Of a stretch of 64,000 nucleotides of DNA, positions 1-48,202 are shown one piece after another. Origin of the DNA: Taenia hydatigena (Eukaryota; Platyhelminthes; Cestoda; Cyclophyllidea; Taeniidae); assembly GCA_036345935.2 (NCBI GenBank), contig JADWOT020000004.1, positions 14,523,467 to 14,587,466 on the forward strand. Direction: 5' to 3'. The notes under the pieces were generated by a model that saw only the letters and a list, made by a program, of their open reading frames with translations, was not told the DNA's origin and made no database searches. Position numbers and translations under genes: made by a program. Positions within the stretch are counted from its first letter, which is position 1, and each line of letters opens with the position of its first letter.

Positions 1-1070
1 GTACGAATCTTACCAAGAGTAGTAATTATAATCAACACTAAGTTGGTGCATTTGATTGACATTTCTCTCTGAATACTGATTGTTGGGCAGTTTGGCCTGC
101 GTTTTACTCCGAGATGTAGATGACTATACGATTTGCCAATTTTATGCCATAGAATATTCCTTTCGCGTGTGCTGAGGACATGGATTCCTTAAGTTACAAT
201 GGCTCAACAGTGTGGGGATGAATGTTAGCCTTGTGATTTTGCAGAAAAGGAGTTGGCGATAGGCAAGTTAGGGTAAGCGATTCAGAGTGCTCCTAATGTC
301 CATTTTGCTACTGTCTTTGCCAATAAGAACGAAATATGCAATGCTCTGTCTGAGTGGTACGCAGTGTGGAGGTAAAATACGAGTGATGGGCCAACCTGTG
401 CCCTGAGTTCAGCAGTGTGCTCACGTAACAGGATTCGCATGTAGATGCCGATTCCTCCATGGTGCTTAACTTGCTAATGCTATTCTTACTAATTTTTGGT
501 TATCGACTCCGGTTCTGAGTTTATGACCACTTCTTTGCACATCCTTGTGAACTACTTCCACCTACCAATTGCTCATTTCAGTTAGCATTTCCATATTATT
601 CTAGCCATTCTTCACTTTACTGCAAGCCCCACTTTTCGTAAAGACGAGAGGTGTAATGCAGCAAAGGCAGTGGATGACAGTTCGTCGGTGAACAGAACTA
701 ACTATATAGCCTTCAGACTCTTGCTCTAGCACCATCATTACGACGGTCATGCCGAGATCTCTGATGATCCCCCCGACATCACTGCTGCTTCTCTCCGTTG
801 AAGCATTAGGCTCACAGCTCACTCAGACGACGTCTTCTGTATGGGCACGCGCAACGACCAGGTCTTTGATTAAATCCTTGTCTCCGTAAGTCAATTTTAC
901 CGTATTCCTCATTCTAGAGCTAACGCGCATCTCGCGAACTCACTGTTTTGGTGTACTATTGCTGTTTTATGTGGTGTGGTTTTATGAGGTCATTAATGAG
1001 TGATGGATGAGCCCAATTTACCTACTAATTTTGATGCAGGACTTGTGACTGTGGCAACCGTCAAATGACA
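1..1070 (+). repeat. R1 dispersed repeat, copy in segment 1
   Basis: About 1.07 kb with an end-to-end but diverged relative at 20697-21728 and a close one at 28585-29655. Shared blocks include tactccgagatg near 107, tggagg near 367, the run around gacgaga near 642 and the stretch ending near cgtcaaatgac at 1060. I see no long reading frame, terminal inverted repeats or poly-A tail, so it is either non-autonomous or a degraded piece of a larger element. The first ~280 bases differ from copy 2 far more than the rest does. Confidence 0.8.
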
Positions 1071-1985
1071 AAGGAAATCTCAGCACTTTTCTTTTGTCAA
1101 TCTTCGCTGGATAGGTGGCCGAGGGTGATCCAGTGTGCTCGTTGATAACATTTGTTGGGAGAATGATGCGTGATCCCTCCACATGCCTAGACTCACGCCA
1201 TGCAGCATTTCCAGAGGCGGAAGAAGAGGTGGAAAAGGAGATTACACATTACAGACATGGATGACTACCTGAATCCTTGTATGGGTCATCCGACTAGTCT
1301 CTGCTGTACTTGTGCAATGGATGGTGAGCCCACTTACCCCACTTAGGCACTTGATGGGTGGTGATAAGATGCCCCTAGGAGCTCACGACCATTTACACTC
1401 ATTAATTTGCCTTCGTTTATTCGTGGTCAGATGTGAACCAGGGATATACCTACACTAATTGTCTGGTTTGCTATCAGCTTCTTAGAAGTTGATAGGTCAA
1501 ATTGTCCTTGACTTGATTGCCATTACTTTACCTGCAAATTTTTGAGAACAATTTTGTCACCCTCAGTCAAGTTCTCACTTCACCTACTGACCATTATATG
1601 CCAGAGGCAGCCGTCAAACTGTGAAGAGGTTTATGGTGGTCTTTCTGTAGCCAGTCCCTATGGAATCAGTTACTGATAATAAATTTTCTTTCACAAGTGA
1701 CTCGGGGATTTAATAATGTGCAAACCTTTGAAGTGTTACCAGACACCGTCATACACTCCACAAATAACTAAAAGGAGCCTGCAACATCTTACCCCGCGGT
1801 CACGAGTGCCCCGATTGGCTCACTTCTGTGAGCCTTTTTGTTTTGTCGTACGGACCCATCCACAGGCTACTTTCAATAACAATAGCGTAGAAGGCACCAC
1901 TCCAAGCTTACTAAGTCAACAAAATGACAACATGCTAGAGCTGAACAAATTTTCGATAGGAGTAGAAAAAAAATTGCCATCTTAC
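1071..1985. other. no supported gene
   Basis: Non-coding as far as I can see. Short open frames on both strands overlap each other and none has splice or family support. There is a purine-rich patch near 1215-1245. Mirrored at 29656-30570 with about three differences per kb. Confidence 0.5.
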
Positions 1986-2092
1986 CCGAGATTTCCTCTG
2001 CTTCTTTCATCCACTCTTCATCCTCTCCTTCAAAGTCACTCTCGTCAATGTTGATGAAATCAGTGAATAGCCCGGCAAAGTGCAGGGACATT
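1986..2092 (-). CDS. candidate acidic exon, unidentified
   Basis: On the minus strand an open segment of about 35 codons encodes a strongly acidic peptide with the core DFEGEDEEWMKEAEE, preceded by FTDFINIDES. It is bounded by an acceptor-like attggcag (exon from 2092) and a strong donor, gtaaga, just after ATC TCG G (exon to 1986, phase 1). I saw no difference between the two copies inside it. It lies downstream of the CDK pseudogene on the same strand but resembles no part of a kinase, so it probably belongs to another gene whose remaining exons I cannot find. Composition and splice signals are the only support. Confidence 0.4.
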
Positions 2093-2224
2093 CTGCCAAT
2101 CTCAGGTCAGCATACCCTTTACCAACTGCAGTTCGCGACTTTCTGCCAAGATTTCAAAGTGGGGATGCAAAAGAGCCTGCTGCGCATTTATGCGCAACGG
2201 TGAGCTGTAAAGAAGAAGCGCCTA

Positions 2225-2255
2225 GACTTAAATGATGTGGTGGTGGTGGTGGCTT
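2225..2255. repeat. GGT/GTG microsatellite
   Basis: A short run of five GGT units, following gatgt near 2234, inside sequence downstream of the CDK pseudogene. The run has the same length in copy 2 near 30825, so it gives no length polymorphism between the copies. Confidence 0.6.
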
Positions 2256-2429
2256 CGTGTCAGCAAACAATTCGCCTTCTTAGGAACGATAAAATAATGC
2301 TAATGAAATAGCGAACCTTGGTCTAGTGATGAGTTGTACAGATTCCTGAAAACAGTGAAGGACTTAGGAGGGCAATGGTGACATCAGTAAATAAAGAGCA
2401 GAGGGGTGATACGCAATGACTACTCAAAA

Positions 2430-3330
2430 GTAACAAATCAAGGCCACTTGTATCAAGCGCACGCATGATCCTTTCTTGGGAGCAAAGTCTGTTGGCGTGC
2501 CAAGGCTGAAGCAATGCAGGGTGATAATAAAGCAAACTTACAACACTGCCGGTAACCCCTTTATTCAGGAGATGTAGAGCAGTTGAATAATCTCTCAGTC
2601 ACCGCAAAACAGCACACTTCTCATGATTATTTTTGCATAGAACATATATAGACGCTACAACAATAGACGCCTTCGCTCAGCAGAGTCTCTGGAGCGAGAT
2701 AAAATAAAGTGATTACCTATATAAATCTCAGATTAGTCAAACACCTTTTGAGAGTCATGAGCGGAACAGAAATTACTTCGCGAGTCAATGCGCGAAGTAA
2801 GCAACCGAAAGACCTAGCGAGGCCAAAGTCTGTCATCTTGACAATACTCCTATTAACATCGACCAACATGTTTTGGGGTCTCAAAGCGCGGTGGATAATG
2901 CGCCTTATGTGGCAACTCAAAGAGACTGCAGCATGTGTTACATGAACAACCAGATACAAAATTAGCCAAATTAAAAATCCACTTTAGCAGTGCCTGGAGA
3001 CAACCCACTGTTCTTATGCTTACGATCCAAACACCGCATGAGATCCATATTCAAGTATTCAAACAGTATGTATGGTCGACTGCCATTTGGAGTGACATTT
3101 TCTGCACTGGGCAACGTCGTTAATCCCTAGGATTTGCTTCACGATGTTGAGGTGCTACGGTTCTTTCTGGAGCGCAATTTCTCTGAGAGCAGTTGAAGGG
3201 ACAACTTGGTCGGTGTGATCAAGCCCTACTCGCTTTAAGGCCCTTAGCTGTTCTGAATTAAGGTCAAAACACTTGTAACAACACCGTACGTGCCTAGGAC
3301 GATAGACTAAGTGTCTCTGTCGCATCTTCT
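2430..3330 (-). pseudogene. cyclin-dependent kinase pseudogene
   Basis: Read on the minus strand, the order of CDK landmarks is preserved: GTYGVV of the glycine loop (3277-3294), ALKRV with the ATP lysine, PSTALRE of the C-helix (3181-3201), FEYLNMDL, CHIRRIIHR, DFGLARSFG (near 2822), FYLAPE, VLFCGD and LGTPTD. A 60-nt GT-AG intron (2717-2776) splits the EVVTLWYR equivalent, and a probable 36-nt intron (2506-2541) precedes LGTPTD. Damage is extensive: a frameshift between GTYGVV and YKCFDL, an in-frame TAG at 3155-3157 after the LLKEL equivalent, a further shift before FEYLNMDL, a stop inside the VLFCGD region, and HRD changed to HRA at 2885-2893, removing the catalytic Asp. It is closest to the PSTAIRE-type (CDK1/2/5) group. 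Retained introns mean it is a duplicated, not retro-copied, relic. Confidence 0.85.
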
Positions 3331-3339
3331 CCCATTTTT

Positions 3340-4397
3340 GATCGAATAAGCCTCGAAACATTACAACCCGACATTACCGCAAAATGCTCAGAGCAAAATT
3401 CGAGTCAACGTTAATTGTAACTAGTTACTTACTCGTCGGTGTCTCATTCTAAAAATAACCAACTCGAAAAACTGTTCAGCTTTGCTTATTTGCAAGACAA
3501 ATGACAGATTTGGATGAGTGAACCAGTTTAAACTGGTGAGTTTCTATTTGAAGCAAGTAATTTTTCACAACTGAGAAATGCTTTCATCGCCAATTCGCAA
3601 TGATTTGAGCACTCTTCTGTTTGACTTGACCTCAGTTTCTTAACCAATGCTATTGTCGCAGTACAAAACATCATTCTTGCTCCTTCATTTAGCTATTTAT
3701 AACCAAGTCTATGGTGCGAGGAAATGGCTCATCAAAGTAAGACTCAATCATAAGTAAATATAATTTGCCATCAAATTATCCTGGGTTTAAAAAACAAGTT
3801 AAATATTAGGTGCTACTGAATGAAGTAAGAGGGAATTTGTTAAAGAAGGTTGATATTTTAAAAATTCTAAGCAAGAGCACATTATTTTGCAATTCTTAAA
3901 GAAAATTGCAGACCTTGTCAAGTCAAAATATTATATTTTAAAACCAAAATCCGCTTTGATCATCCATTTCACCGAAGCAACAATGCAACTTTACATTGTG
4001 GTGATTTCATGGGTAATAAAAACAATGTAAACATCAATCTGAAGTGCAGCCACTGGTGATCCGGCTTTAAAACTCCTTCCTAGCTATGACTTCTATCTTC
4101 CTGCATATAAATTGATGAAATGATCATGTTTCGTGCAATATATCTCCTGGACGAGTGGCGGGAATGGTGCTGATACCGAGTACATGAGAACAGATTAGCC
4201 CTCAGACATTCTTGTTCTTAACCTCCTATTGTTGTCAAATCGCCCAAATACTGTACCTGTCCCAACGAAGATGGTGCTACAACTTATTCGTGCAAACAAT
4301 TTTGCTTTTCTAACTTTGCTATTCATTATACGGTTAAGCAAATCAAAGCGTTATTTAAGACTAATAATGCTTGAAATGGGAGGTCGGAAACCCTCCC
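3340..4397. other. AT-rich stretch without genes
   Basis: Clearly more AT-rich than its surroundings, especially 3740-4020, with many runs of A or T. It contains a perfect 16-base palindrome at 3522-3537 and no coding support on either strand. Mirrored at 31925-32982. Confidence 0.5.
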
Positions 4398-5181
4398 TTA
4401 ACTAATCATGACCAAAGTTGCCCTGAACTTTGCTCTAGGAGCTTCGAAGTGGTGCCGATTATGTTCATTCGGATATTTCCTGACTAGGACAGGTGTAAGA
4501 GGGCCAAGCAAAACCAACTTTTCTACTGTTCTAGGCACACATTCGGTCGCTTTGAGCTGTCGCAATCGAATGTTTTGATAAATTTGGATGGTGATGGGAA
4601 TCATGCTTAAAGTGTTTCACTGTGGTGGTACTTCAACTTCCAAAGCAGTCCATGATGGGATGGGCGCGAAGCGTCGCTTTTGTAATTACGATATGGATGC
4701 AAACAACACCTTGAATTTCTTGCAACGCCATCAATTCGGGGCAGATATGCTCTTGAATAAGAGCCAATTCACAACTTCTCTTAAACAACTTTCTTCCTCT
4801 TCGGATTGCACTCCAGCCTGCTGAATCTGATGCTAACGAGAGTATAATGGGAGCATCAGAAATAAGTAAGACGAAAGTCTGGTGTGGACATGGAATATTG
4901 TCGCTGCTCAAACTCGACTGCAGGATTTCGACTTCGACTATCCATTGCACAGTCTGTTCAACCTAGTTTTCTTAACTTGGGGCCATAAAAGCCTGATCGA
5001 ACGCATACCTGAATTTGGGGGAATCCCCAACACAGTGGAGTTGCAAGTCCGCCTTGTTCTGAACAAAACGCAACATGTCATGCACTACAGATGAGGGAGT
5101 GAACGCGAGCACAAAAGGCAGATCCTTCAACTGAAACAGTAGTGCCACCCACCCCGATCGCCCGACTCTAGCTGCTCCCAT
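4398..5181 (-). CDS. unidentified multi-exon gene (conserved protein)
   Basis: Three minus-strand coding-like blocks. Block 1 starts at an ATG (5181) as MGAARVGRSGW and runs to a donor, gtatgc, at 5008. Block 2 (about 4962-4710) contains WIVEVEILQSS and a segment ALIQEHICPEL, ending at donor gtgttg. Block 3 (4604-4398) contains RLRQLKATECVPRTVEKL. The support is comparative: of four copy-to-copy substitutions inside blocks 2 and 3, three are silent in this frame (TCG/TCC, GCG/GCA, CTC/CTT), and the fourth (Ile/Ser) is the last codon before the stop. The same changes would alter the protein on the opposite strand. I do not recognise the family; ALIQEHICPEL faintly resembles the Sld5 subunit of GINS, but the rest does not. 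Phases between blocks 1 and 2 do not fit cleanly, so the exon model is incomplete or the gene is damaged. Confidence 0.45.
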
Positions 5182-5560
5182 TGTTGACCAATGCCATAGG
5201 GGGCTTTGGAAGGATCACTTAATTCTCCTTCCTACAATTTCCCAGTCATAACACCTTAGCTCATTCATTCTCATGACCTTGAGTTGGTCTGACATTCGAT
5301 ATTGGCATTCGTGAAGTGTGGAAAGTGTTAAGTGCATGGGTTTGGTCGAAATCACTAATAATAGGCAAGAGGTCACAATTAACTCAAGCAACAAGGAAGA
5401 GGACAATTGCATTTCAGACATACAAGGAGTCGATCGTTCCTATTCCATTCTACAAGGTATCAATGAGCAGCACGAGCCATCATTGTGCCAAACCCTGCCT
5501 ACTGCTCGAAACTGCAGGGTTCCTCCACGTCAACAAATTGATCTCTTTGTCAACGGGCAC

Positions 5561-5720
5561 CTAGGTGGCAGCAGCAGAGGGAGGATCATCGTCAGTAGTG
5601 CCCTTGTCAACGGAAGCAACAAGAACCGGCAATTCTTCAGTGACAGCGTACACGTTTTACTCACCAACAGTGTCAATGAATCCGTGGTTGGAAGCCGTAA
5701 TCAAAATGGATAATTTGACA
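5561..5720 (-). CDS. candidate 3' end of an unidentified gene
   Basis: On the minus strand an open stretch ending TASNHGFIDTV meets a perfect donor, gtgagt, at 5664-5659. After only 30 nt an acceptor, gaag, precedes a 24-codon terminal exon (5634-5561) that reads ELPVLVASVDKGTTDDDPPS and ends in TAG. Phases match (1/1). No substitution separates the two copies here. The upstream boundary of the first exon is not clear, so the gene cannot be extended. Competing plus-strand frames cover the same bases and I cannot exclude them. No family recognised. Confidence 0.3.
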
Positions 5721-8700
5721 ATATTGCCGCACGGTGAGGGACCCGATCAAAGATGCGGTATGTACAACTCCATGCATGAGACATTGTCCTTACAAGTACA
5801 ATCTCGTAGCAAAAGAAGGAGGCGGAGATCTTGATGATCTCAGATTGACAGTCATGCTGAGTATCCTGCAAAGAGAAGTGTCTGTTCTTGACACTGCTCT
5901 ATGGGAGGCGAAAAGAGGAAGCCAACTGAGTAAATGGAAACAATTTACAAAGAGGCACCTAAGGGCAGCCCAAATGTCGAATATGATGACAGCGACCAAT
6001 CAATGTTTCAAAATTAGTATCATAAGTACCATGGACAATGAGCGGTGAATGTGGACAACATAAGACGATAGAAGCCTAAAAAAGTGGAATCTGCATAAAA
6101 TGTCGAAGAAGAAGCAGAAGGAAAATGGCTGACTTTGGCTTTGGAGGGCGCCAGTGTAGGGAAGCGAAATGCCAGAGTAGTTCTGGCCTCATTGAAGTGC
6201 AGCACATAAGATGTAATGCCTTAGAAGAGTGTAAGCAGTTGGGGTCCCATTCACCCCAGCCTGACTTCTCCTCGCTTACTAATGCCTCTACAATAAACAA
6301 ACGGTGCTGCACAAGTAATCGTGGTTCAGTGCGTCAACTGCTAATTTCTTTCTTACAACATGATGTGCAGAGGCATAAAGATGCTGAAAGCGTGAATAAG
6401 ATAAAGAAGTTTGCGACGTGCCCATAAATGTAACAAAAATGACAAATTTTGGGTGCAAATGATTGCTTTATTTCCTTCTGCTTTTGTAAACTCTTGCCCC
6501 TACTAGAGGGGAGTGTGGGTTTGATCCGACCTCTCCAGGCTGAATGGAGAGTGTAAGAGTATGTGAGAAAAATGCTGCCACGATTGGATGTCTGAGCATA
6601 GAGTGATAGTTAAATTAGCATATTTAAAGTAATTTTCCATCAGCCCATTCTCCTGTTCACGCAACTGATGTAAGCTGATGTAAGTTGGGATTGTGCACGC
6701 AGCAGCCAAAGAATTTGCTGTGGCTAAACAAGTATCTATTTTCACGCCCAAATAATAGGCTACTATTTGATCCGCGCCAGTATAGGAGAAATTGGAGCAA
6801 AATTTAGGGAAAAGGTCAAGTTAGACATGCGTGACTCATCCATAATTTTGATAATCTCTACCTGTTTGATGTAGGTTGTTCCGTTAAATATGAAGAGGGG
6901 GATTAGTAAAAGACATAGATAAGAAATCACATTACTAAGCTCTACGAATTGCCAAGAAGGCTATAAGGTGGTTGCATTGTGTCTATTTAGGCCGCAACTT
7001 CTAATGTCAATGACATAGTCAATCTATTGACACTGATTGCGATCGCTCCAGTCACTGCTGATAAAGGTAAGGCCATCTTAATTCCTGTAAGATAGATACC
7101 AGTGCAGCTCTCCTAAGTTATTGTCATTTTCGGCACAATTTTAATACAATTCCGAACTTAATTGCGATCTGAGGAAAAGGCCGACGTGGTATTACTAATT
7201 GTTTGACGATGAATTTAAACCTTTGTACCCGTCCGCAATCAAGGGCCTTTATCAACCCGACCACACGTAGAATTCACTAATATGCCAGATTAGATACGAA
7301 TATTCGCATACACGGATCAGTGTTACTTCCATTATTCAATATTTTAGCAATTGGCGTATCTATTGATGATAAAAACGCACAAAATTGCATCGACCTTACA
7401 ACCGAACAATAAATATACAACGGCTACACAACGGATACATAAGTCAAGCGATTGGCGTTGACAAGTCTGCAACGATGTGCACGTCGTATGTACAAGACCG
7501 AATCTAAGTCCCTGTCAAATGTTCATATCACCTATTCGATCGGTTTTGGAGGACTTCTGCGTGGCTGGCAGTGGACTGGTGGTGTATATCAGAAAAATTT
7601 CAGGTGTAACAAATGTAGTCACATGCAAACAGCTAAGAGAAAATTGCAAGTGCAAATAGTCAAGAAAGCATAGACTTTCACAAAAACGAAACATAAAAGT
7701 TACTGAAGACCTGTAAACATAAAAGACCATTCGGTGCGATTCCAACGGTATTTGAAATGTGTATGCTACCATCCACATGCATCGGAAGTACGCGTACAAT
7801 TTCCGAAATAAGGTAATTTGATTTGGGTAGAGTTTCTGCTCATGTGCTAAGCATGCTGCTTAAAAGACGAGTGCTATGAAACAAAGCATTGCGTCGTGTC
7901 CTGCATCGCATGCATTCTCGCATCAAAATTGCATTATTTTCTCGGGACTGTGGTTTTGCGTTTTACGGCTTATTATGCATAACTAATCCCCAGAACCTTT
8001 TTAATACATTATTCAACTGTATAATGAATGTTTAACTTGGTCAATTCAAGTAGCTGTCAGCCTCTTCAAGTGCGATTAGCATTGACATGCGACTGATTTA
8101 AGTGTAAGCACGTAAGCGTGTGATGTGTGCTGGACTGGTCATTTCTTTGTATTGAGTTACCCTCATGCTCCGTGATAAAGCAGCCCTTGGGGACCTCGAT
8201 TCCAGTGCTTAATGCCTCCTTTTGGGTCCCCTACCATAGCCTTCTACTAACTGTAATCATGTATAATTCTGCCATGCAACCCCTGCAAAGCATTAGCTTA
8301 GTGGTGAAATTATTTCCCACTAAATTTTGTGGAGACAATGCACACTTGGGCAACCATGCAAAATAGGGGAAAATGAGTGACCATGCCTAAGCAAGTGCAT
8401 AGTAGCTGCTTGTGCACGCACTGGTGTGATGGCTAAATTGAATCTTCAGCACTATTTAACCACTGGTTCGCTGATTCCAGAAGTGAGGTACTAAGTTTAT
8501 AGGGCGATGCCAGCACTCAAATTCGGGCGATAAAGCTATGAGCACTTTATCAAAGCAGCTTGTTTTTAATTTCTGGAAGGTAAAAGCAAAACGCTATAAT
8601 TTCGCGTTAATTAGCTCATTCTGAGCCACCTAGCAGGTTCTAGCTAAATGGTACCAATTAATGGTTTTAGACCGCTACATCAGAACTTTCACTGAAACCG

Positions 8701-9540
8701 ATAAATTCATACAAAATATAGTTATTAAGCAAAATTTACTTGTAAAAATAAATGCCAATGCATGGAAAATTTTTATTAAGCCGTCCCATGAAAAGTCGGT
8801 ACTTGCCAAGCAATAAATGCGCGGAAGTATATCATGAATTTCTTTTTCACAAAATGGGTGATTTTTAACTTATTTATGACTGTTGGAGTTCATTTTATTT
8901 TCATTCCTAATTGATTTGCCCAATTATATCAGTATTATTCTAAGCGTTGTTTTAACAAACTTCATTAGGTGTAGCAGAAATTAAGGCAATTCCTTATTTG
9001 CTCGTTGGAAAACTAAGAGTCGTAGCCGTAAGAGTCGAATAAGTGAGACACCTAAGGTAATTCTTCGTATCATGCACTATGATTCCCGATTGTCAGCCAT
9101 AATGGAGGGACATAGGAGCAATGCGTCCTTAGGCCAAATTCTAGCTCAAGTTAATGCTGCTCCCTCAGATAACAGACACGACGTCACCATAGACCATAAT
9201 ACTACTGTCACGAATCGATGTTCATACTTGTGAATAGGGTAGGATTCAATTACAATGGCTCAAGGCATATTCGTGAACGCTTTGTTAAGTCTTTTGCCAC
9301 ATGCCGAATTACCATGCGCTATCATATCTCCCCGAAACCCGCTTCTTGCTCAATATCTTCCCTCACTTTGGTTTACCCTACCAGTTTGTGCTCGGTTTAT
9401 AACATCACAATCCTCTCCTTAGTGTTCAGTGTGCGTCGATGGGTCAAAGCACAGGGAGCAGATAAAAGGTAAGTGGTGTCTACGCGGATGAGAGCTTAAG
9501 TCATGGGGAGTTCTAGGCCTGTGTACTGAGGTAACAGAGA
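5721..9540. other. no supported gene
   Basis: Many short frames on both strands and none with convincing splice sites or family signal. A 105-codon plus-strand frame ending at 6048 looks protein-like and has a possible 39-nt intron at 5759-5797, but its one copy-to-copy change is a replacement (Leu/His). The frame 6125-6427 shows one silent and two replacement changes. The segment 8560-9000 is AT-rich. Mirrored at 34306-38125. Confidence 0.45.
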
Positions 9541-9544
9541 GTTT

Positions 9545-9592
9545 ACAGCGCCGCACGCAAATGTGCTAACATACTAAGTCGAGCTTAATAGT
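9545..9592 (-). repeat. tRNA-like box A fragment (possible SINE remnant)
   Basis: On the minus strand the bases read gacttagtatgttagcacat, close to the D-arm/box A region of a tRNA-type promoter (GGCTTAGTGGTTAGCAC). It shares the 13-mer atgttagcacatt with a second site at 27568-27592 on the same strand. No box B (GGTTCGANTCC) or clover-leaf follows, so this is not a tRNA gene. A decayed tRNA-derived SINE would explain it. Confidence 0.35.
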
Positions 9593-9599
9593 GGGTGGG

Positions 9600-12500
9600 T
9601 ACTGTTACCTCCCGCTCCATAATCAGCCCAATCTGCGCGATACGGAAGTGGGAAAATGGAATGCAGCACGAAATTTAAGATTTCTACGCGTTTTGATCCA
9701 CAGAACATTCAGTGCTTTTGGAACGAACTACCCCTCCAGCTTGGTTTCAATGAACTGTTAGAAGATTAGCATCCATAATCGCTACCTATCGAAGAGCGAA
9801 GAAGGCCCTTAAGCAGATAATGAGTAGAGATGTCACTTCCCATGAGATGGGTAAATGTGGGGGGTATCACGTCAAGATTATCGGCACTATCAGCACTCAG
9901 CAGCAGCGATCTTCCTTTGGAGTTACAAGCAAGTCTGGAAGGTGGAAAGGATTCGACCAAGATTGTACCTTTAACATAAAGACCAATGTGGAGTTGCCAT
10001 CCCTTCCAGCTGCCAGCTGAGCGCAAAACCCACTCATTGACTCCACCTCGCTGAGCTGTGTGCATGGTTTCGCACACACGTAAGTGCACTTCGTTGCATG
10101 TACTGCGGAGCAGTGATTACTGGACGCATTCTGCAGCTAAAGTTACCCTAGCAACTAGAGAAACTGCAATATTTTTGGCTTACGTCAATGCAAGGACATA
10201 CAAAATTCAGTTGGTCTCTGCAGCGTCCCTAATTTACGATCAGCGAGACTGCCGCTATTGTAATTACGTACATGGGACTGTCTAACAGGCTAAGGCTGCC
10301 AGCTTACGCTACTGACTACAGAAAAGGTCTTCTTATTTAAAATTGAGATGCATCTAACTTCTTAAGGTATTTGGGCATTGGCTATTAGGGATTAATCACC
10401 TCATAAGTTACTACGCTAGGAGATGGGTAACCCGGCCCAAATCAAAGAAAGCCTTACCAGATATGCGATTGGTCTCCCGTGTGGTATACCATTCTACCAA
10501 TATGCAAATTTTGCTAGTCAGTCTTCCATGGTAGCAGCTTTGCCAATCGCAAAATGGAATATTGCAGACTGACTGCGTTAAGCATGCCATTCCACAGTTC
10601 TACATCCGGCATGTCCTTACGTAGGCAGAGGCTGTACATTGTGTTAACCCTCTCCATCTTTCTGAGCCTAAAGTACTTCTTAAGTAGGCGCAGTAAAATG
10701 CTAGAAAATGAGAAATTGACGGCTTTAACTTCTATTCGCTGCATCAACAGGCGGAGTTACATTTTGGGACAGATGAGTGTATAGTAATCACTGATCCACG
10801 GCACTTAAAACGAAGTTTTTAACATATGTGCATATGAAGCAAGGTACAGCTTTTGGTAGGAGTGGACCAACTGAGAGGATTTTGCGATTAGCTAGCTGCT
10901 GGGAGGGATTACAGCACGACTACTGGTCAAGAAGATGATCATTCTCTAACCAACTGCCAAAAACAGCAGCTTTGTATTTGTAATGTTATTCATGTTGACG
11001 CAGCCCCTTCCAATACGTACCAAGGAAAGCAAGCGACAGCTTATCCTTTAAAATAATTGAAGCTTCAAAAAGCGAATTAATAGGCAAGGGGTCATGTAAT
11101 AGCACTTTCACGACTTAGACCTGCATAAGCTAGCGCTAGAAAAATTAGCAAATCCTCTTAAGACAAAATACCTTTGCAGAAATATGTTTGGTAAGGTTGT
11201 TTAGTAAGCACTTCATCAAATATCGTGACAGCCCTTTGACAAGAAGTTATTGTCCTTTCTTTAAATAATCCACATACAGACTTCTCTTGACAGATCAAAT
11301 TGGGAATGCCAGCCCTAGAGATGATGGTTGGGATGACGCTCACAACCGCAAAAGAGGGGGAAAATAGAAGAAATCTATAAAGGAAGGAAGAGAAATTATT
11401 CCACGAGTTACACTTAATTTACATGAATTCCAACAGTTCCATACGCATGAGATTTTGAAATCCTTTAGAAGGAGAAGGAGAGAGCAGTGAAGAATTAAAG
11501 GGCAGAGTGCTAGGGCAAAACGATGTGGAGAAAAGGTGGTGAGGATGACTTGAACAGCATGAGTAACGGCGTAGAGTGCCGCAATAAGAAGCACGCTTTG
11601 AGTTAATGTGACCGTTATCTTCCTCGTTGTGTTGTAGTGCGGGGATAAATTTTGGCCTTGTGATTTTCAGATATAAATTTGGAGATGGGTAAGTTGGTTA
11701 AGCAATCTTTTAGTGAAGATGCAAACTAAGAACTGATACTTGGATAATGCTTTTAGCGATTGCGATGGCGTAGCATTTTGCGGTTAATTTTTTTCCATGC
11801 AATGCTTCACACCTTCATGATTAAAAGCAAAATTCCCTAGAACTCTTGAAATTCCATCGCCTAATCGATGCGTTAATTGGACTTCGGAAACCAGATCTAC
11901 GGCCCAATAAAATACAAAGCTAACATAAATTTCTTCCGCGGTCGCGACTACAAATCTACTCTTACTGAAGCAATTTCCATTCATCAATTTCTATATTTCT
12001 TTTCCAGCGCAGGCTATGATTCGACAACAAGAATATGTGCAATTCAGTCATCATAAAGTCCTCCTATCAAGTCCCACACACCTCCTGCTCAATGACTATA
12101 GAATGTCCCACTGTCCAATTCCTTAATCCATCTGCCGAATTTGGGAAGAATCTGGTGGAATAAAACATAATTTTTAATGGTAGAAGTGGTATGGCACTCA
12201 AGACAAGGATGGTTCATTTCACCTAAGGCAGATGACAATCAAGCCTTGCGCATAGTTTAATCTTGAGAAAAAAATCGCAAGTAGCAAGAAAGAAAATTGT
12301 CCCCAGTGATTTACAAAACTCGTGCTTTTTTCTCCATAGAATTCCAATTAGTCGTACGGGTGTTGCGTCTTGCTAAATATGGAACGTGATTCTATCAATA
12401 CCTCGAATAAATCTTATTATTTAATTTACCGTTGGCAAATGCAAATAAGGTAGTTCCAGCTAAAAGTGAGTAGCAACGGGAGATTGATCAAACTTGAAGT

Positions 12501-12872
12501 CAGTGAATCACTAATCTGATAATTGCAACGATTCGACAACAGGGTGTTTGATGTTTAAGCATCTGAAAAAGTCTAAATATTGTCTTAGCTTTAAATGGTG
12601 GGGCATGATTTCCACAAGGAAATTTATCTTTCCATTGAACAGTTGCGATTGGGAGCAATGGTGAACGATTTAGTTAATGGTTAAGAAGAATGGCACTAAT
12701 TGATGTTGATTTAGTTAGGAAGTAGACGATGAAAATGCCTCTTTGTTAGAACTCACAGAGCAGTGGAAAGTAACGACAGCTCACTAATCAAACTATGTGG
12801 CTATGATCCTATTTTAGGCTGAATAGTTGTGAGGCAGGCCAATTTAGTGTTTACAAGGAAATGTCGCATTGC
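9600..12872. other. no supported gene apart from the R1 fragment
   Basis: Overlapping short frames on both strands (for example 9766-10089 minus, 10514-10747 minus, 11158-11343 minus). In 9766-10089 the copy-to-copy changes are replacements, which argues against coding. The stretch 10508-10790 shows no change between the copies but nothing I recognise. A purine-rich patch lies at 11460-11490. Mirrored at 38185-41455. Confidence 0.45.
11636..11712 (+). repeat. R1 fragment
   Basis: A short internal piece of R1. The stretch ggggataaattttggccttg, the following tgatttt and then gggtaagttggttaagc correspond to bases about 215-285 of R1. Only this middle part is recognisable. It is repeated in copy 2 at about 40221-40297. 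Confidence 0.55.
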
Positions 12873-37300: not shown

Positions 37301-38129
37301 ATATAGTTATTAAGCAAAATTTACTTGTAAAAATAAATGCCAATGCATGGAAAATTTTTATTAAGCCGTCCCATGAAAAGTCGGTACTTGCCAAGCAATA
37401 AATGCGCGGAAGTATATCATGAATTTCTTTTTCACAAAATGGGTGATTTTTAACTTATTTATGACTGTTGGAGTTCATTTTATTTTCATTCCTAATTGAT
37501 TTGCCCAATTATATCAGTATTATTCTAAGCGTTGTTTTAACAAACTTCATTAGGTGTAGCAGAAATTAAGGCAATTCCTTATTTGCTCGTTGGAAAACTA
37601 AGAGTCGTAGCCGTAAGAGTCGAATAAGTGAGACACCTAAGGTAATTCTTCGTATCATGCACTATGATTCCCGATTGTCAGCCATAATGGAGGGACATAG
37701 GAGCAATGCGTCCTTAGGCCAAATTCTAGCTCAAGTTAATGCTGCTCCCTCAGATAACAGACACGACGTCACCATAGACCATAATACAACTGTCACGAAT
37801 CGATGTTCATACTTGTGAATAGGGTAGGATTCAATTACAATGGCTCAAGGCATATTCGTGAACGCTTTGTTAAGTCTTTTGCCACATGCCGAATTACCAT
37901 GCGCTATCATATCTCCCCGAAACCCGCTTCTTGCTCAATATCTTCCCTCACTTTGGTTTACCCTACCAGTTTGTGCTCGGTTTATAACATCACAATCCTC
38001 TCCTTAGTGTTCAGTGTGCGTCGATGGGTCAAAGCACAGGGAGCAGATAAAAGGTAAGTGGTGTCTACGCGGATGAGAGCTTAAGTCATGGGGAGTTCTA
38101 GGCCTGTGTACTGAGGTAACAGAGAGTTT

Positions 38130-38177
38130 ACAGCGCCGCACGCAAATGTGCTAACATACTAAGTCGAGCATAATAGT
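38130..38177 (-). repeat. tRNA-like box A fragment, copy 2
   Basis: Counterpart of 9545-9592. The core atgttagcacatt is unchanged, with one substitution nearby (gagcttaata becomes gagcataata on the plus strand). Confidence 0.35.
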
Positions 38178-40220
38178 GGGTGGGTACTGTTACCTCCCGC
38201 TCCATAATCAGCCCAATCTGCGCGATACGGAAGTGGGAAAATGGAATGCAGCACGAAATTTAAGATTCCTACGCGTTTTGATCCACAGAACATTCAGTGC
38301 TTTTGGAACGAACTACCCCTCCAGCTTGGTTTCAATGAACTGTTAGAAGATTAGCATCCATAATCGCTACCTATCGAAGAGCGAAGAAGGCCCTTAAGCA
38401 GATAATGAGTAGAGATGTCACTTCTCATGAGAAGGGTAAATGTGGGGGGTATCACGTCAAGATTATCAGCACTATCAGCACTCAGCAGCAGCGATCTTCC
38501 TTTGGAGTTACAAGCAAGTCTGGAAGGTGGAAAGGATTCGACCAAGATTGTACCTTTAACATAAAGACCAATGTGGAGTTGCCATCCCTTCCAGCTGCCA
38601 GCTGAGCGCAAAACCCACTCATTGACTCCACCTCGCTGAGCTGTGTGCATGGTTTCGCACACACGTAAGTGCACTTCGTTGCATGTACTGCGGAGCAGTG
38701 ATTACTGGACGCATTCTGCAGCTAAAGTTACCCTAGCAACTAGAGAAACTGCAATATTTTTGGCTTACGTCAATGCAAGGACATACAAAATTCAGTTGGT
38801 CTCTGCAGCGTCCCTAATTTACGATCAGCGAGACTGCCGCTATTGTAATTACGTACATGGGACTGTCTAACAGGCTAAGGCTGCCAGCTTACGCTACTGA
38901 CTACAGAAAAGGTCTTCTTATTTAAAATTGAGATGCATCTAACTTCTTAAGGTATTTGGGCATTGGCTATTAGGGATTAATCACCTCATAAGTTACTACG
39001 CTAGGAGATGGGTAACCCGGCCCAAATCAAAGAAAGCCTTACCAGATATGCGATTGGTCTCCCGTGTGGTATACCATTCTACCAATATGCAAATTTTGCT
39101 AGTCAGTCTTCCATGGTAGCAGCTTTGCCAATCGCAAAATGGAATATTGCAGACTGACTGCGTTAAGCATGCCATTCCACAGTTCTACATCCGGCATGTC
39201 CTTACGTAGGCAGAGGCTGTACATTGTGTTAACCCTCTCCATCTTTCTGAGCCTAAAGTACTTCTTAAGTAGGCGCAGTAAAATGCTAGAAAATGAGAAA
39301 TTGACGGCTTTAACTTCTATTCGCTGCATCAACAGGCGGAGTTACATTTTGGGACAGATGAGTGTATAGTAATCACTGATCCACGGCACTTAAAACGAAG
39401 TTTTTAACATATGTGCATATGAAGCAAGGTACAGCTTTTGGTAGGAGTGGACCAACTGAGAGGATTTTGCGATTAGCTAGCTGCTGGGAGGGATTACAGC
39501 AGGACTACTGGTCGGGAAGATGATCATTCTCTAACCAACTGCCAAAAACAGCAGCTTTGTATTTGTAATGTTATTCATGTTGACGCAGCCCCTTCCAATA
39601 CGTACCAAGGAAAGCAAGCGACAGCTTATCCTTTAAAATAATTGAAGCTTCAAAAAGCGAATTAATAGGCAAGGGGTCATGTAATAGCACTTTCACGACT
39701 TAGACCTGCATAAGCTAGCGCTAGAAAAATTAGCAAATCCTCTTAAGACAAAATACCTTTGCAGAAATATGTTTGGTAAGGTTGTTTAGTAAGCACTTCA
39801 TCAAATATCGTGACAGCCCTTTGACAAGAAGTTATTGTCCTTTCTTTAAATAATCCACATACAGACTTCTCTTGACAGATCAAATTGGGAATGCCAGCCC
39901 TAGAGATGATGGTTGGGATGACGCTCACAACCGCAAAAGAGGGGGAAAATAGAAGAAATCTATAAAGGAAGGAAGGGAAATTATTCCACGAGTTACACTT
40001 AATTTACATGAATTCCAACAGTTCCATACGCATGAGATTTTGAAATCCTTTAGAAGGAGAAGGAGAGAGCAGTGAAGAATTAAAGGGCAGAGTGCTAGGG
40101 CAAAACGATGTGGAGAAAAGGTGGTGAGGATGACTTGAACAGCATGAGTAACGGCGTAGAGTGCCGCAATAAGAAGCACGCTTTGAGTTAATGTGACCGT
40201 TATCTTCCTCGTTGTGTTGT

Positions 40221-40297
40221 AGTGCGGGGATAAATTTTGGCCTTGTGATTTTCAGATATAAATTTGGAGATGGGTAAGTTGGTTAAGCAATCTTTTA
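40221..40297 (+). repeat. R1 fragment, copy 2
   Basis: Same internal R1 fragment as at 11636-11712, carried along in the duplicated segment. Confidence 0.55.
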
Positions 40298-41455
40298 GTG
40301 AAGATGCAAACTAAGAACTGATACTTGGATAATGCTTTTAGCGATTGCGATGGCGTAGCATTTTGCGGTTAATTTTTTTCCATGCAATGCTTCACACCTT
40401 CATGATTAAAAGCAAAATTCCCTAGAACTCTTGAAATTCCATCGCCTAATCGATGCGTTAATTGGACTTCGGAAACCAGATCTACGGCCCAATAAAATAC
40501 AAAGCTAACATAAATTTCTTCCGCGGTCGCGACTACAAATCTACTCTTACTGAAGCAATTTCCATTCATCAATTTCTATATTTCTTTTCCAGCGCAGGCT
40601 ATGATTCGACAACAAGAATATGTGCAATTCAGTCATCATAAAGTCCTCCTATCAAGTCCCACACACCTCCTGTTCAATGACTATAGAATGTCCCACTGTC
40701 CAATTCCTTAATCCATCTGCCGAATTTGGGAAGAATCTGGTGGAATAAAACATAATTTTTAATGGTAGAAGTGGTATGGCACTCAAGACAAGGATGGTTC
40801 ATTTCACCTAAGGCAGATGACAATCAAGCCTTGCGCATAGTTTAATCTTGAGAAAAAAATCGCAAGTAGCAAGAAAGAAAATTGTCCCCAGTAATTTACA
40901 AAACTCGTGCTTTTTTCTCCATAGAATTCCAATTAGTCGTATGGGTGTTGCGTCTTGCTAAATATGGAACGTGATTCTATCAATACCTCGAATAAATCTT
41001 ATTATTTAATTTACCGTTGGCAAATGCAAATAAGGTAGTTCCAGCTAAAAGTGAGTAGCAACGGGAGATTGATCAAACTTGAAGTCAGTGAATCACTAAT
41101 CTGATAATTGCAACGATCCGACAACAGGGTGTTTGATGTTTAAGCATCTAAAAGTCTAAATATTGTCTTAGCTTTAAATGGTGGGGCATGATTTCCACAA
41201 GGAAATTTATCTTTCCATTGAACAGTTGCGATTGGGAGCAATGGTGAACGATTTAGTTAATGGTTAAGAAGAATGGCACTAATTGATGTTGATTTAGTTA
41301 GGAAGTAGACGATGAAAATGCCTCTTTGTTAGAACTCACAGAGCAGTGGAAAGTAACGACAGCTCACTAATCAAACTATGTGGCTATGATCCTATTTTAG
41401 GCTGAATAGTTGTGAGGCAGGCCAATTTAGTGTTTACAAGGAAATGTCGCATTGC

Positions 41456-41613
41456 TTACATGTTTACATCTGTCCACTGCCACAATAGCTGAAGACGAAG
41501 GCAAACAGCATCAACTTTGCGAAGAGTAAGTCCCAGTCTGCCTACCCTTCTTTCAATTATCCACGTTAAAAGGCAATTTGAGAGCTCCTTATTGGCAATT
41601 GTTTTTAGTTTAA
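41456..41613 (-). pseudogene. possible CENP-B/pogo-type HTH fragment, copy 2
   Basis: Counterpart of 12873-13030 with an unchanged peptide. Confidence 0.28.
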
Positions 41614-43170
41614 TCACGCACGCTGCTGGTTTCTTGACGGTAGCGGATAAATGCCACCAATTTATGTGGCAGGAAGTGTAACGTGTTACTTGGTAAGAAT
41701 ACGACTGCAAAAACGAAAACAAGCCCGTTTTGATCAAAGCATGATTTTGGCAATCACTCATTTAGCTCCGAACAAAGCAAGAACCATTAGCAAAGACAGC
41801 TCTACAGTGGCACAATATGGCCGAACTTGCACCTTCGGAAAGCTTTAGATAACACATTAATTCATTCGACACTTATACTAATTTCAAGCCTCATCTTTTG
41901 TAGAGGCTAACATGAAAGACGCATGTGCTGATATTTGTAATCGTGCAGGGAGAGTACGCATTGGAATCAAAAGCTCACCCATTTGAGTTCATATTTCACC
42001 ATTGACTGCATCGTCTCTAGTCTAGTCAAAAAAGGCGTTCAAGTCTAGGGATTTTAGCTATGTCGGTGACAGACTCTCATGCTCGTGTCAAATGATTGCC
42101 CGCAAACCTGGTCTCTTCAAGCCATGCTTTGGACTGCTCTTCTAATTTGAATTGGTTGTCAGTCACCTCAGTGTCAGACATTAATTACAAGACCTAGGCC
42201 AACCCTCTTTAAGGGTTCCGCATGTCAAGCTCCGCTGGTCTCAGTGAGTCAATGTCAATCGCTTTGTGCACTCACACAAGTACTCACTGTGGGTCCATTT
42301 TAGCACGCAAGAGTTTTGTGAATAGGCACATGGTTACACTTGTGAGAACAGTAGAAGCTAGAGAGTGCTTGTAAAATCACACTGGGTCGTCGGCTTGGGG
42401 ATGGGCTAACTTCGCGCCAATTATGCTGTCTGATTTCTAAAGGACTCGGTCTGCCCTGCGACCCGACACTTTTTACTCCTCAGGCCAACTTTGTTCATCT
42501 CAACCGCTACTGCACACAACTATACAGTTGGCTGCTACACCAACTTCTCCTCACATGACATATGGAAGCCACTCCTTTGTCGATAAGATACTTCTCAATG
42601 TGTCGTTCTGTGTTGATAAGGGTAAAGTTAGCAAGGAAAACAAGAGTTTTTTGCCAATGCAACTAAAGTAATGAAAAGCACATAATAATAGGCTGCAATA
42701 GTTTGAATAAGCTACCACTCATGATAATGCAAGAAATAGTTTAGCAAACGAGGCTTAAGTAATTAACATGGCCTAAAATTCCAAAGTTAGAGGTGGAGGT
42801 GGTGGATCTTACCTAAGCACAAATTTATCTCCCTATTCCACGCTGAGAGCTTCTACGACTCATGTTTAACTGTCGACAACTCAGGTCGCTTCCGTTCAGT
42901 GGCACTGGCAAGGTGAATTGAGATGGCCCACTACTACTCATTGCCTTTTATTTGTTAAGCAATCATGCGCATGCAGCTTCATCATTATAATGAGTGCAGG
43001 TAGCGCGTAATTTTAAATGGATTTAGGCGTCTAAAATCACAATGTCCGTGTGAATGGCATCATGGTTTGTTTAGCTACATATTTGACGCTTCCGTTTTAG
43101 ATTAATTGCAATACCTAAAGCTAATATAATTGAATGTTATAGTGAGGAAACCTTTACTGTTTTGCATCAG

Positions 43171-43370
43171 ATCTGAATGTAACTGATGAAGAAAAGTTGC
43201 CAGAAGTAATCCAAGCCGTTGGGTCGAATGGCATATGGGCGATCAATGAAACAGGGATGGTGGTGGAATTTGTGGAGTCCTCCATATGTTGCATTTTGAC
43301 AAAGGATGATGCGTCAGGTTCATCTATGTCATGTTATTGCCAAATGGGACCATTTGGCAAAACATGGTGA
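43171..43370 (+). CDS. candidate exon, frame open in copy 2
   Basis: Open version of the exon at 14588-14788. It runs from acceptor gcatcag in phase 1 to TGA at 43368-43370, with three cysteines close together in the second half. There is no family match I can name and no evident partner exon upstream. Confidence 0.33.
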
Positions 43371-43714
43371 TTCACTCTTTAGATGCTACCTTACAGAAAA
43401 TAGGCATCGCAAACAATATTGCTAGCAAATTTATCGGCTTCCAGTCTAGCAATACTTAAATCATGCTTTTACGTAAGAAACGGAGAGCGCTCGCAACTTC
43501 TTTTGTCAACAATGGTGGAAATAGTGAAAGTTGTTACCGCGCCATAGGTAATTTCGTAAAAGCACATAAGAATGTGGTCTTGATCCTTGCACTACTTAGT
43601 ATTTTTGCGTCACATGTTCAGCGCACTTAAAACGTCTGGGTATTGTGACTTGTGGCTGTTTGGGCTTGACCTCCTAAAGTCTACCAAAAATAGTAGCATT
43701 TGTTGGATTCAACA

Positions 43715-45807
43715 ATGTCCGCTCCACAGCCTAACGACTTCAAAATGTTTTGCTACACAGCGACCTCAACCTTATCTCCTCAGACAGTGGTGGTAAAAGA
43801 AGCCTTCATACAGGTCCCACTACCGCAGAAATTGCATGGTGGGGACAAATCCCACCAACATCCACAAAAGGGCCGATCACCACAGATGGCTTTACACAGC
43901 AGAACAGTCGCATGTACAGATTGTGACAAATACAGCAAAAACTGACGTAACTTACATTGCTGCTTTTAACCAGTTTCAAATCGCAAGTCCGTAATACGGA
44001 CCAGGGAGAGACGATTCTCTGTTTTTAACATTCCTTTCAAAATTTTGCCCTTAAATTTATTTGTCACGTTATATCTTCTCTTACCTCAGGTAGCGTATTT
44101 GAGGCACTTTTTCACTGCCTCAATTTCGGCATCTTTGAGATATCAAAGCACATCCCTCCTCTTAAGTACAAGCGCTTTGAACATTCTTGTAACAAGAACT
44201 CCACGACATCGACAATCTGGGCGCTAGGTAGTGGTGATGGAATTCGATGGATTCGAAAACGTAGCAACTGCTGACCTCCCTGCACATTTACTCATTTGTC
44301 TTACCATCCAACACTTCTTTTCAAACAACGGATGATTTCGATTAATATGGCGTCTTTGGTTGATCAAGACTGATATGCCAATGTTAGCTCTTAGGTTATT
44401 TATTAAAAAATGCATTTGTGTACTTTGCTCTTGATTGTTTTCCAGTTCCATTGTTAAATTCTGATGTGCTTTAGTCGGAACGATTGTTTAATGCATTTGT
44501 ACTCAACTGCTAGTTAGACTTGAGGTTGCACCCCAACATGGTATTCAATTCACAAAGCGTCAATCCACTTATCACCGCCTCTGATTTTTTATTTTTATAA
44601 ATATACAAGAGTGAGAATGAAGACGATTTTTAATGCTCTCTTTCGAATCACGAAAATGGTTTATTTCGAGCCTGAAAAGTAAAAGCAGATTAAACCAATT
44701 GTCCGTGCGCTCGGCACCCGATAATGCAGTTTCATCAATTTCGTAAAATACACGGGGGTAAACCACATGCGGATAGTTTACTTGAGTCGCATTCGCAAAC
44801 ATGGCTAGCCAAATTAGCGAACTGTGATTACTTGTGCTCTAATCCTATTTAAGCCTGAACGCAGGTCCAGCAGTATTCGTTTGTTTAGCACAAATTACGG
44901 CGCAAGCGTTACAGCATTCCCAATATTTTGCCTAGCTCAGCTCCAATGGACACCTTCATGTGTGAAAAATGCCTTAAGATACATGCTAACCCCATCCTAT
45001 ACCGGGCACACATGGCAAGTGTGCATCACGGTAAGTCCCATTCTCCTTTTCAAGGCGTGTATTGATTCACAAGCATTACTTAGAATTCAAGAAAAACTAG
45101 ATAACTTGTGTAATTGAGCAGGCGAATCAGGAGAATGAGTGGTTTGCATCCATTAATTTGCTGCACCACCTGTGTGCCTTTTGATAAGTTATTCAACACT
45201 ATTTGCATCACTTTAAACATATTTTAGAATGCTTGCCCGCATGCTGTCCGAATTGCTTAAGAATGGAGGTATCGATTGGGAAGGTACTCATACATCAAAA
45301 AGGTAGGTAAATCTAAACATTGTCCTCATTACACTCGCACTACGGTAACATGTTCGCTAACGAGAATGCATGATTTCATTTAAACACTTTCCAAGCTTCG
45401 CAGCACAACGTGTGCTTTGTGTGTCCCCAGCAATTCGAGAGTTTTGAATCACTCATGCAGCACTACATTGAAGCGCACATCAGTGAGTTTGTAGATGCGT
45501 TAATCCGGTCAGCTAAAAAGTATTTTATTGTTTCAACATGCTTTAGTGAACATACGAGCTTCTCCTGAATTCATACCTTGTTGTGATATGCTGCAGCTCA
45601 AAATAAGGAGTCATCTGATGTACGCTATTACTGCATGGAATGTTATGAGGACTGTCCAACATGGGAGACACTAAAAGAGCACACCCGCTTGAGCCATCCT
45701 TGTATGTTTTCCTCCATTTGTCAGACTCACTTCTTGATGACTAATTTTGCTGATTATGCTCCTGCATTGCAGATGTTTGGAGCAAGCTGTACAGTCAAAT
45801 GGGATAG
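43715..45807 (+). CDS. C2H2 zinc-finger protein, copy 2
   Basis: Counterpart of 15133-17225 at +28582. Exons: 43715-43913, 44090-44227, 44941-45030, 45228-45302, 45396-45482, 45597-45701, 45773-45807. It encodes the same 242 residues. The introns show ordinary divergence, for example two substitutions just before the 45228 exon, whereas the coding exons show only two silent ones. All splice sites are preserved. Both copies look able to encode a full protein. If the duplication is an assembly artefact, this is simply the other allele. Confidence 0.85.
44682..44787 (-). pseudogene. possible MULE-type transposase fragment, copy 2
   Basis: Same fragment as at 16100-16205, unchanged in the duplicated segment and again intronic in the zinc-finger gene. 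Confidence 0.25.
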
Positions 45808-48202
45808 AATTTCCTTCACGCAGATGAATTTTGTAAGTTTCAAACGAGTTCATTTACTGCCCCAAAGCACTTTTATAAGTTCCGCCTTTGCAAAACTTAC
45901 TTTAGTTAGTTGATATTGCGAAAAACCCATGTTTCGTAGGGATCTACCGGTCAAGCTTCTTAAAACTGTCAGGTGTTTTAGGCATCACCCTCGGTGTAAG
46001 CTCTGCTTGGCTACGCTTTGATTGCGTTTAACGTTCTATCTTCTGTCACCTTCCTTGGGCAATCGTTTCGGCATATACTTTAGCATAAACATTAGTGCAA
46101 ACTGCGCCTGTCCTGTCATCTGATGTTCATGCAATTTACCACTTTTAAATGTACGGACTTCTGCTTTTCCCATCACTTATTCCTTAGTGCATTGAAAAAA
46201 GCGCATAGGCATTCGTTTGATAGAGTAAGAATTCCGATGGAAAATTGATTGGGCATCTATCTGGATGCAAATTACACCATACAAATTTTTAATTCTCAGA
46301 CCAATATAAGGCAAAGACATTTCCTTTAGATATAAATCCTTTTAATCTACGCAGCGCTGCTGCAATAGTCAGCTGTCATCAATACCGCTCAGTTCAGATG
46401 CTAGACTTTAAAAGGCAGGCCACGTAAAGCTAGGTAAATTAAATCCCCAGATTTTATTTAAAAGGAAGTTTGCGTTCATTTATGATGGAAATCTCCTTTT
46501 GAAATTATAATTTTTTGATCACTAATGGTTTTGCAGCGCGTTATGTTGTTAAGCATGAAATTCTTGAGTCAAATAGATAGCAAAAAAACTTACTTGGCTT
46601 AGAAGAAAATTTGTGGGTTCCGAACTATTGTTCTCAACGCCAAAATATACCCTATGCATAAATACCTTTACTGACTGTTGACAGCTCTCATTGAGGGCAG
46701 AATTCCTATTTAAAGCATAGACAGCTGTAGCAAGTGCTTTCTGAGTGCGTGTTTTGGGTCGCGAGCGGTCAGCTTAGCAACCCCCGTGACTCAGCAGAGG
46801 TCACTAATACCACGATGAAATTAAACCCTGATTACATCCATGCTGGTGCGTTAAAAATACGCATGCGGAGGAGTGGTCGAGTGAGAACCTGTAATAGTAA
46901 CATGGACCAGTCATGCAACACTTTCATTCCCAACACTGTCATGTCAGAATGAAGCAAGATTCTAATGTGTTTGGCACCGCGTCTAATTAAGCTAAGGATA
47001 AACGTAACAGCACGAACTAATTTAACCGTTAGTAGCAGATAAATGTACTCTGATCTTTGTAGTTTTTAATTATTATGGGATGACCAGAAAGAACCGTCAA
47101 CTTTCGAAGGCTTTTTTTTCACATTCGCTTGAAAATGCTGCTAATTTTGTGCAGAATACACAAGCATGGGCTTTAAGGATTATAATTTCGTTCGCAAGCT
47201 CACAATTTACCCACTGTATCTAAAAATGCACAAAGGCATCGCTAGAGAATTTTTAGCGAGTCAGTAGAGAGGTGAATAGAAAACTGTTTGGGTTTTAGAA
47301 ATAAATCAGCTGTAAGACTATGGGAATCACACTGACGACGCGTCATGACAAAGACCACGTGAGTCTGGATCTGCCGATAACGCGAGCATTTCAAGACAAA
47401 CTGTTAGGCCTATGTTTGCAAAAAAACTCGGTGCCGTCAAACCACCATTGCCAGTTTTCCTCAGTGGCGTCCAATTACAAGCCTCCACACACAACCCTAC
47501 ATGCCGGTGTGCGCTCCCGATGTGTTGATAAGGTATCTCGACTACTTCTAAATACTGAAGCAAGCAATGCACAATGTTCAATAAAATGCATCTGCTCTGA
47601 GGAAGGCAATGACTTTGGCAGTGCTCCCGCAACGTCGTCTCAGAATATGAATTCGCGGGTAGACCATTTGCAGTCAAGCTAGATGAAAATCCGCAAAATC
47701 AAAATTAAGTGCATCTAGGCTAAAGAAGAAGAGTCGAAATCAAGGTAAAATAATTATTTTAAGCAAAGCAAGTAGGGACAAAAAAGCAAACTAAGGTGTG
47801 ATTGTATGAGCAGGCTCTGCAGTTTGGGATGATTGCACAGTAGATGCCACCAGTGCTTGCTTGCATTAAGTTCCAAACCGCCTGGTGAGATGTGTGTATT
47901 GACAGGTTGCTCTAGCCTCTTAGAGGGTAAATTCTTAAGATTTTATTTAGCACGTATGGTATTTACATTCGCCTGGATGCGATTTGTGGTTTGCACGGAT
48001 GTGCAGGTAATTTGTGTTCAGTAATGAGTGCGAATAATAAGGTCAACTAGCAATGAGTGTGGGTTGTTGCGCATGTAAGTTGGTTTGCAGTAGGACATCC
48101 ACAATAAAATTAAACATGCTGCTGACAAAGTCACTTACGCCCCAATTTGGCTTGTCGCACCAAAGACAAGCGAATTACGGATGGCTACGGAGCAGCACGC
48201 TA

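Follow-up and report, generated by a model that had tools for sequence, protein, structure and literature searches.

The window, a 64,000-nucleotide stretch of Taenia hydatigena DNA (C4:14,523,467-14,587,466 of an assembly of 306 Mb in 1354 pieces), contains two copies of a spacer, S, in the same orientation, each with a zinc-finger gene model. Region R follows the second copy, and an open homeodomain exon lies to the right of the pair (Table 1). Coordinates follow the window numbering, negative values lying to its left; 100 kb of flanking sequence was fetched on each side (264 kb in total). The only run of N found in the window by self-comparison is the gap between the copies. A scan of the window for tandem repeats (score of 50 or more), tRNAs (ARAGORN) and Rfam families (gathering score) found none of these.

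Table 1. Features of the duplicated locus and of its flanks
Feature	Position	Strand	Basis or remark
Inverted arm U1	-47028..-32552	inverted	left of window
Start of the U2 arm, left of window	~-13266	+	flank comparison
Inner end of repeat arm, copy 1 (unit U2)	1..1134	+	99.7% to inverted U4, 90% to copy 2 over -250..990
Spacer S, copy 1	1135..19620	+	ends at contig end; 68 substitutions, 2 indels against copy 2
Zinc-finger gene model, copy 1	16364..17225	+	hand-built from splice sites, 119 aa
Exons of the copy 1 model	16364-16448, 16646-16701, 16822-16900, 17015-17119, 17191-17225	+	
Assembly gap, 100 N, nominal size	19621..19720		self-comparison
Repeat arm, copy 2 (unit U3)	19721..29719	+	contig begins inside arm; outer part 99.05% to inverted U4
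1-kb dispersed repeat	20665..21641	+	69% to 28561-29587 and 30-1002; weak copies on C1, C2, C3
Spacer S, copy 2	29720..48202	+	match to copy 1
Zinc-finger gene model, copy 2	44946..45807	+	protein identical to copy 1
Exons of the copy 2 model	44946-45030, 45228-45283, 45404-45482, 45597-45701, 45773-45807	+	
Region R, right of copy 2	48203..63316	+	right limit from flank comparisons
Open homeodomain exon, right of pair	58903..59271	-	open frame
Inverted arm U4	78936..89007	inverted	right of window

The window occupies the edge of a ~7.9-Mb domain (C4, 6.7-14.6 Mb) that holds dozens of diverged copies of its segments. For example, with 40 of 53 candidates scored, at least 75 matches to a 1-kb spacer probe were recorded, none of them outside C4 6.8-14.6 Mb; among those listed, two are near-identical, both in the window, and the rest are 75-90% identical. 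Probe 17000-19620 likewise finds two near-identical places, the other listed matches being 77-90% identical and distributed over C4 and unplaced contigs (40 of 131 candidates scored). A 3-kb probe from R (49000-52000) has at least 41 matches, 39 on C4 including itself and 2 on unplaced contigs (40 of 133 candidates scored); among the matches listed, its only near-identical place is itself, and the 40 others are at 75-82%. What several unplaced contigs (C1194, C92, C257, C1115 and C540 among others) share is only a piece of ~730 bp from the spacer end, together with the ~300 bp before it, at ~80-88%, which suggests that they may form a separate repeat subfamily. A search of the assembly for the COX1 family found nothing (6 candidates scored).

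The two zinc-finger models, of five exons each, encode the same protein without a single exon substitution between the copies; as built by hand, both are predicted to be intact and identical. If the duplication is real, the alternative named in the sequence-only reading, the locus may have two working zinc-finger genes. C2H2 profiles match the model below the Pfam cut-off (best E 2.2e-4), and a protein search with it found no homologue. Related exon pieces are numerous. The zinc-finger protein, with 150 of 1091 candidates scored, matched at least 168 of them. Most are on C4 and unplaced contigs, and a few of those listed are on C1, C3, C6, C7 and C8. The paralogs L038 and L039 have one finger without a zinc-binding cysteine, and L038 also has a stop inside that finger; the first exon was not found in their 3.2-kb pieces. 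Since many other single-exon matches are open, there may be further intact copies.

The exon to the right of the pair encodes a paired-like homeodomain, with DUX4 as its best match among solved structures (E 1.7e-12). It has 52 matches in the assembly (all 121 candidates scored), half of them (26) on C4 between 6.7 and 14.0 Mb. All 26 of the C4 pieces carry at least one stop, and 22 carry exactly one TGA and one TAA. Stop-free matches are found on C3, C7, C8 and unplaced contigs, among other places. Open gene models are thus kept in the window at the edge of the array, whereas within the array the homeodomain pieces are damaged. On C10 there is an inverted homeodomain pair of equal score, 20.8 kb apart, with one TAG in each member.

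Self-BLAST of the window gives a single long direct match, 2-19620 to 28586-48202, at 99.32% identity with 119 mismatches. A two-copy match of such length is far beyond chance, and it bears out the sequence-only reading, in which a near-identical direct duplication (here 99.3%) had a first copy stopping at the gap, with 19620 as its last base. The extent of 19.6 kb given there is correct at the right limit, the gap, but the left limit is not at base 1, since the match extends leftward in the flank; the left end of copy 1 is only apparent, because the window edge, not biology, makes the cut. With the flanks included, the pair extends at lower identity (about 90-97%), from -145 against 28439, then to -3188/25334 and -8113/19721. 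In this part -3188..-293 matches 25334-28223 at 97.2%, and -8113..-3517 matches 19721-24368 at 94.5%, reaching the first base past the gap. The match thus consumes both facing contig ends (the left contig ends at 19620 and the right one starts at 19721), with an overlap of ~28 kb. The self-comparison shows no junction between the copies, whose place would be in the gap.

The copies had also been described as differing by a few substitutions per kb. This holds for the spacer, with 3.7 per kb, but the differences are spread unevenly, the first kb holding 51 of the 119. From 1135 on, over 18,486 bp, 50 of the 68 substitutions are transitions and 18 transversions, and they are spaced as if random (CV 0.96, P 0.54, 5000 shuffles). 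The uneven substitution density inside S that recombining haplotypes could leave was not found, a result that discriminates between no hypotheses. Residual sequencing error as the source of the differences is ruled out by the ratio of substitutions to the 2 indels. The excess in the first kb arises because the copies carry different classes of arm sequence there. The divergent first kb does form part of a dispersed repeat, but this was rejected as a sufficient cause, both classes being common to the inverted units too. The weak copies of the 1-kb repeat on other chromosomes indicate that part of the arm is older and more widely spread than the array.

Four repeat arms flank the pair within 140 kb, U2 and U3 direct, U1 and U4 inverted. 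A 3-kb arm probe finds four matches of at least 93%, all at this locus, among the matches listed (40 of 154 candidates scored). Inverted arms are at least 99% identical at the locus: U1/U2 over 12,977 bp at 99.23%, and U3/U4 over 8,506 bp at 99.06%. In a four-way alignment, 393 sites separate the arms into two pairs. Within the outer arm (-8256..-600), 198 sites group U1+U2 against U3+U4, 22 group U2+U4 against U1+U3, and 2 group U2+U3 against U1+U4; in the transition (-600..-250) the corresponding numbers are 34, 9 and 0. In the inner block (-250..990), 116 of 116 sites group U2+U4 against U1+U3, and at 990..1135, where the spacer starts, 12 of 12 group U2+U3 against U1+U4. Of the 379 sites that show either of the first two groupings, a single breakpoint at -360/-314 fits 357, whereas no more than 245 were reached in 2000 shuffles.

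The identities follow the same pattern. The left flank does align with 19721-28584, an alignment that the sequence-only reading had put forward as a check on haplotypes, but U2 and U3 are only 96.4% identical in the outer arm and 90.0% in the 1.24-kb inner block, compared with 99.6% in the spacer; within those blocks a different inverted copy is the better match for each of the two, at 98.9-99.7%. For the outer part the values are 98.9% for U1-U2 and 99.05% for U3-U4; for the inner block, 99.7% for U2-U4 and 99.3% for U1-U3. The 350-bp transition is 95.4% identical in U1-U2, 97.4% in U3-U4 and 86.6% in U2-U3. The arm of copy 1 is distally like the left inverted copy and proximally like the right one, and that of copy 2 has the opposite combination. 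Each of the four possible pairings of outer with inner class is present, and the arms have therefore exchanged sequence; the mosaic would fit exchange between paralogs on one chromosome and exchange between homologues equally.

A second 100-N gap is found left of the window (-32551..-32452), and U1 and U2 are 99.9-100% identical over the 5 kb adjoining it. Both 100-N gaps in the 264 kb border arm repeats. Open frames in the U1 and U2 arms (-13393 to -12425 and -33393 to -32947) are kelch-repeat-like by eye, and one such frame of 149 residues reads identically in the two arms.

Close copies also occur elsewhere in the array. Two copies at 7.59 and 8.09 Mb, inverted, 0.5 Mb apart and N-free in the fetched pieces, are 99.80% identical over 8858 bp. 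Over a 3858-bp part of this match the two are 100% identical, and another copy, at 8.11 Mb, reaches 97.95%. Two triplets of 1.8-2.0 kb have copies 97.7-99.4% identical and 0.4-5.5 Mb apart. Having three copies, these are not two haplotypes of one locus, but they are less alike than the S pair (99.6%); the sole comparably close case (99.80%) is just a pair and so could itself be misplaced haplotypes. A partial tally of close equal-score pairs within 100 kb gives 10 inverted and 1 direct besides the S pair, which makes the direct S pair atypical. The tally covered 19 of 75 rows for the spacer probe, 34 of 41 for the R probe, 19 of 70 for probe 17000-19620, 24 of 52 for the homeodomain and 27 of those listed for the 168 zinc-finger matches; the rows were picked for similar scores, so that direct pairs may be missed, and equal scores are no proof of identity.

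The favoured reading, in our estimate about as likely as not, is that the pair represents real paralogous copies of S with exchanged arms. On this account two non-allelic copies of the 18.5-kb spacer would lie in a palindrome-rich amplified array, at the edge of the domain on C4, each with a repeat arm of at least 10-14 kb attached to its left side. Recombination or gene conversion among the four arms would have reshuffled the outer class, the inner class and the inner neighbour. Contigs would then end inside near-identical arms or spacer, and the scaffolder would have joined them by a nominal 100-N gap. As contig ends lie within near-identical repeats and the gap is nominal, the sequence fixes neither the size of the gap nor the orientation of the S copies. 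The repeat architecture, the mosaic of the arms, the amplified array and the single state of the chaperonin loci elsewhere are shown directly by the sequence; that both S copies are on one chromosome we infer.

Alleles of one locus, collinear or inverted taken together, are a substantial possibility somewhat short of even. Eight CCT subunits and HSP60 make nine Cpn60/TCP1 loci expected in the genome. All nine were found single, on C5, C6, C8 and C9 (all 33 candidates scored), and broad haplotype duplication is therefore unlikely, small as the sample is. The published genome (308.5 Mb, 43.0% GC) was assembled with Canu from 33x PacBio, with Hi-C in version 2.1 and 294 scaffolds in version 1.2 (PMC8384839). 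The size reported there amounts to 91% of the 338 Mb estimated from k-mers, and a size below that estimate speaks against haplotype inflation, on the figures in the available text of PMC8384839.

The sequence-only reading had favoured two haplotypes of one heterozygous locus scaffolded one after the other, with one S locus per haploid genome and its alleles assembled as overlapping contigs laid end to end. This is rather unlikely, but much is in keeping with it: as in haplotypic (false) duplication, a near-identical segment is repeated across an N gap and the match reaches both facing contig ends, as a dovetail of ~28 kb over a 100-N join. Only two S copies of at least 99% are present among the matches listed, no continuation of copy 1 beyond 19620 was found (the R probe having one near-identical place among its listed matches), and the other close equal-score pairs of the array are mostly inverted in the partial tally. 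Unlike in false duplication, the chaperonin loci are unduplicated, divergence is uneven by tenfold or more and the arms are closer to other paralogs. If these were alleles, their divergence would be 3.6% in 7.4 kb and 10% in 1.24 kb of arm, as against 0.37% in the spacer; each arm is closer to a different paralog, and elsewhere in the array paralogs come in threes. Heterozygous SNVs per Mb are 362 in T. asiatica and 122 in T. saginata (PMC5036155, available part). The spacer divergence is thus 10-30 times the heterozygosity of two other Taenia species, not of T. hydatigena itself, for which no figure was found in the available part of PMC8384839. The simple haplotype reading is weakened. Because the locus is at the edge of a palindrome-rich amplified region, a mix-up of parental copies is only one possible cause among several.

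In a second form of the allelic explanation, the worm would have been heterozygous for an inversion of the S-R-B segment, which inverted arms flank, and the assembled contigs would switch phase inside the spacer. Both outer arm classes are found joined to S, an outcome expected from inversion via inverted arms, and the first base of the right contig is 143 bp from the end of the U4-U2 match, the first kb of this contig being 100% identical to U4. The reciprocal product, the same B region with the other arm, is absent from the 264 kb examined: between U1 and U4 the B regions are only 80-97% similar (99.9% in one 1.9-kb piece), and the one at U1 has no R match of 400 bp or more beside it. Such structural alleles are unlikely. 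Chimeric contigs, at least one of them with S attached to an arm that is not its own because the arms exceed the reads in length, are very unlikely: the near-identity of the arms beside the second gap and the position of both gaps at arm repeats would suit them, but the S copies differ by far more substitutions than indels, which gives them the look of two genuine sequences rather than of a single set of reads that was assembled twice.

On sex chromosomes, palindromic amplicons whose arms exchange sequence are a familiar phenomenon in the literature available. The locus resembles the ampliconic palindromes of the mammalian Y and X and of the willow sex chromosome in its long inverted repeats of more than 99% identity, its mosaic arms and its multicopy sequences largely limited to one chromosome region. 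It differs in being on a non-sex chromosome, in that the array gene copies examined are damaged, and in that exchange is deduced from one assembly. The host group is, to our knowledge, hermaphrodite and without sex chromosomes. No palindromes or amplicons of tapeworms were found in the literature sampled in part, including PMC10850878 and PMC6225667, which is weak evidence of absence. Local segmental duplications reported for T. hydatigena are likewise duplicated blocks, but they amount to 0.63% of the genome, and the available part of that paper does not mention a single-chromosome array of ~7.9 Mb; genome expansion is credited there at least partly to retroelements, not to large duplications (PMC8384839).

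A wider picture can be drawn tentatively, with the odds against it: a hermaphrodite tapeworm with palindromic amplicons on ordinary chromosomes, in which the ~7.9-Mb array would derive from a former homeobox/zinc-finger segment, with intact genes at its edge and perhaps elsewhere, inverted near-twins would be present on several chromosomes, and arm exchange would still be yielding new combinations of arm and spacer, the S pair being a fresh one. If the copies are real, the pair shows that a non-sex chromosome of a parasite has undergone recent, mosaic duplication driven by palindromes. This may then be part of the reason why the assembly is ~1.8 to 2.7 times as large as the other tapeworm assemblies listed in the available part of PMC8384839. 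If the copies are alleles, the gene counts of the array are too high. In both cases the array is a demanding test of how well haplotypes can be separated from paralogs, and it would be wrong to take the gap for a simple tandem duplication.

Two further open frames lie to the right of the window. The first, 91722-92303, is retroelement-integrase-like by eye. For the second, 129384-130778, 65 kb from the window, the protein matches include one database entry at 100% identity, a T. asiatica fragment at 92% (60% covered), a Taenia crassiceps protein at 85% (79% covered) and one from Echinococcus granulosus at 78%.
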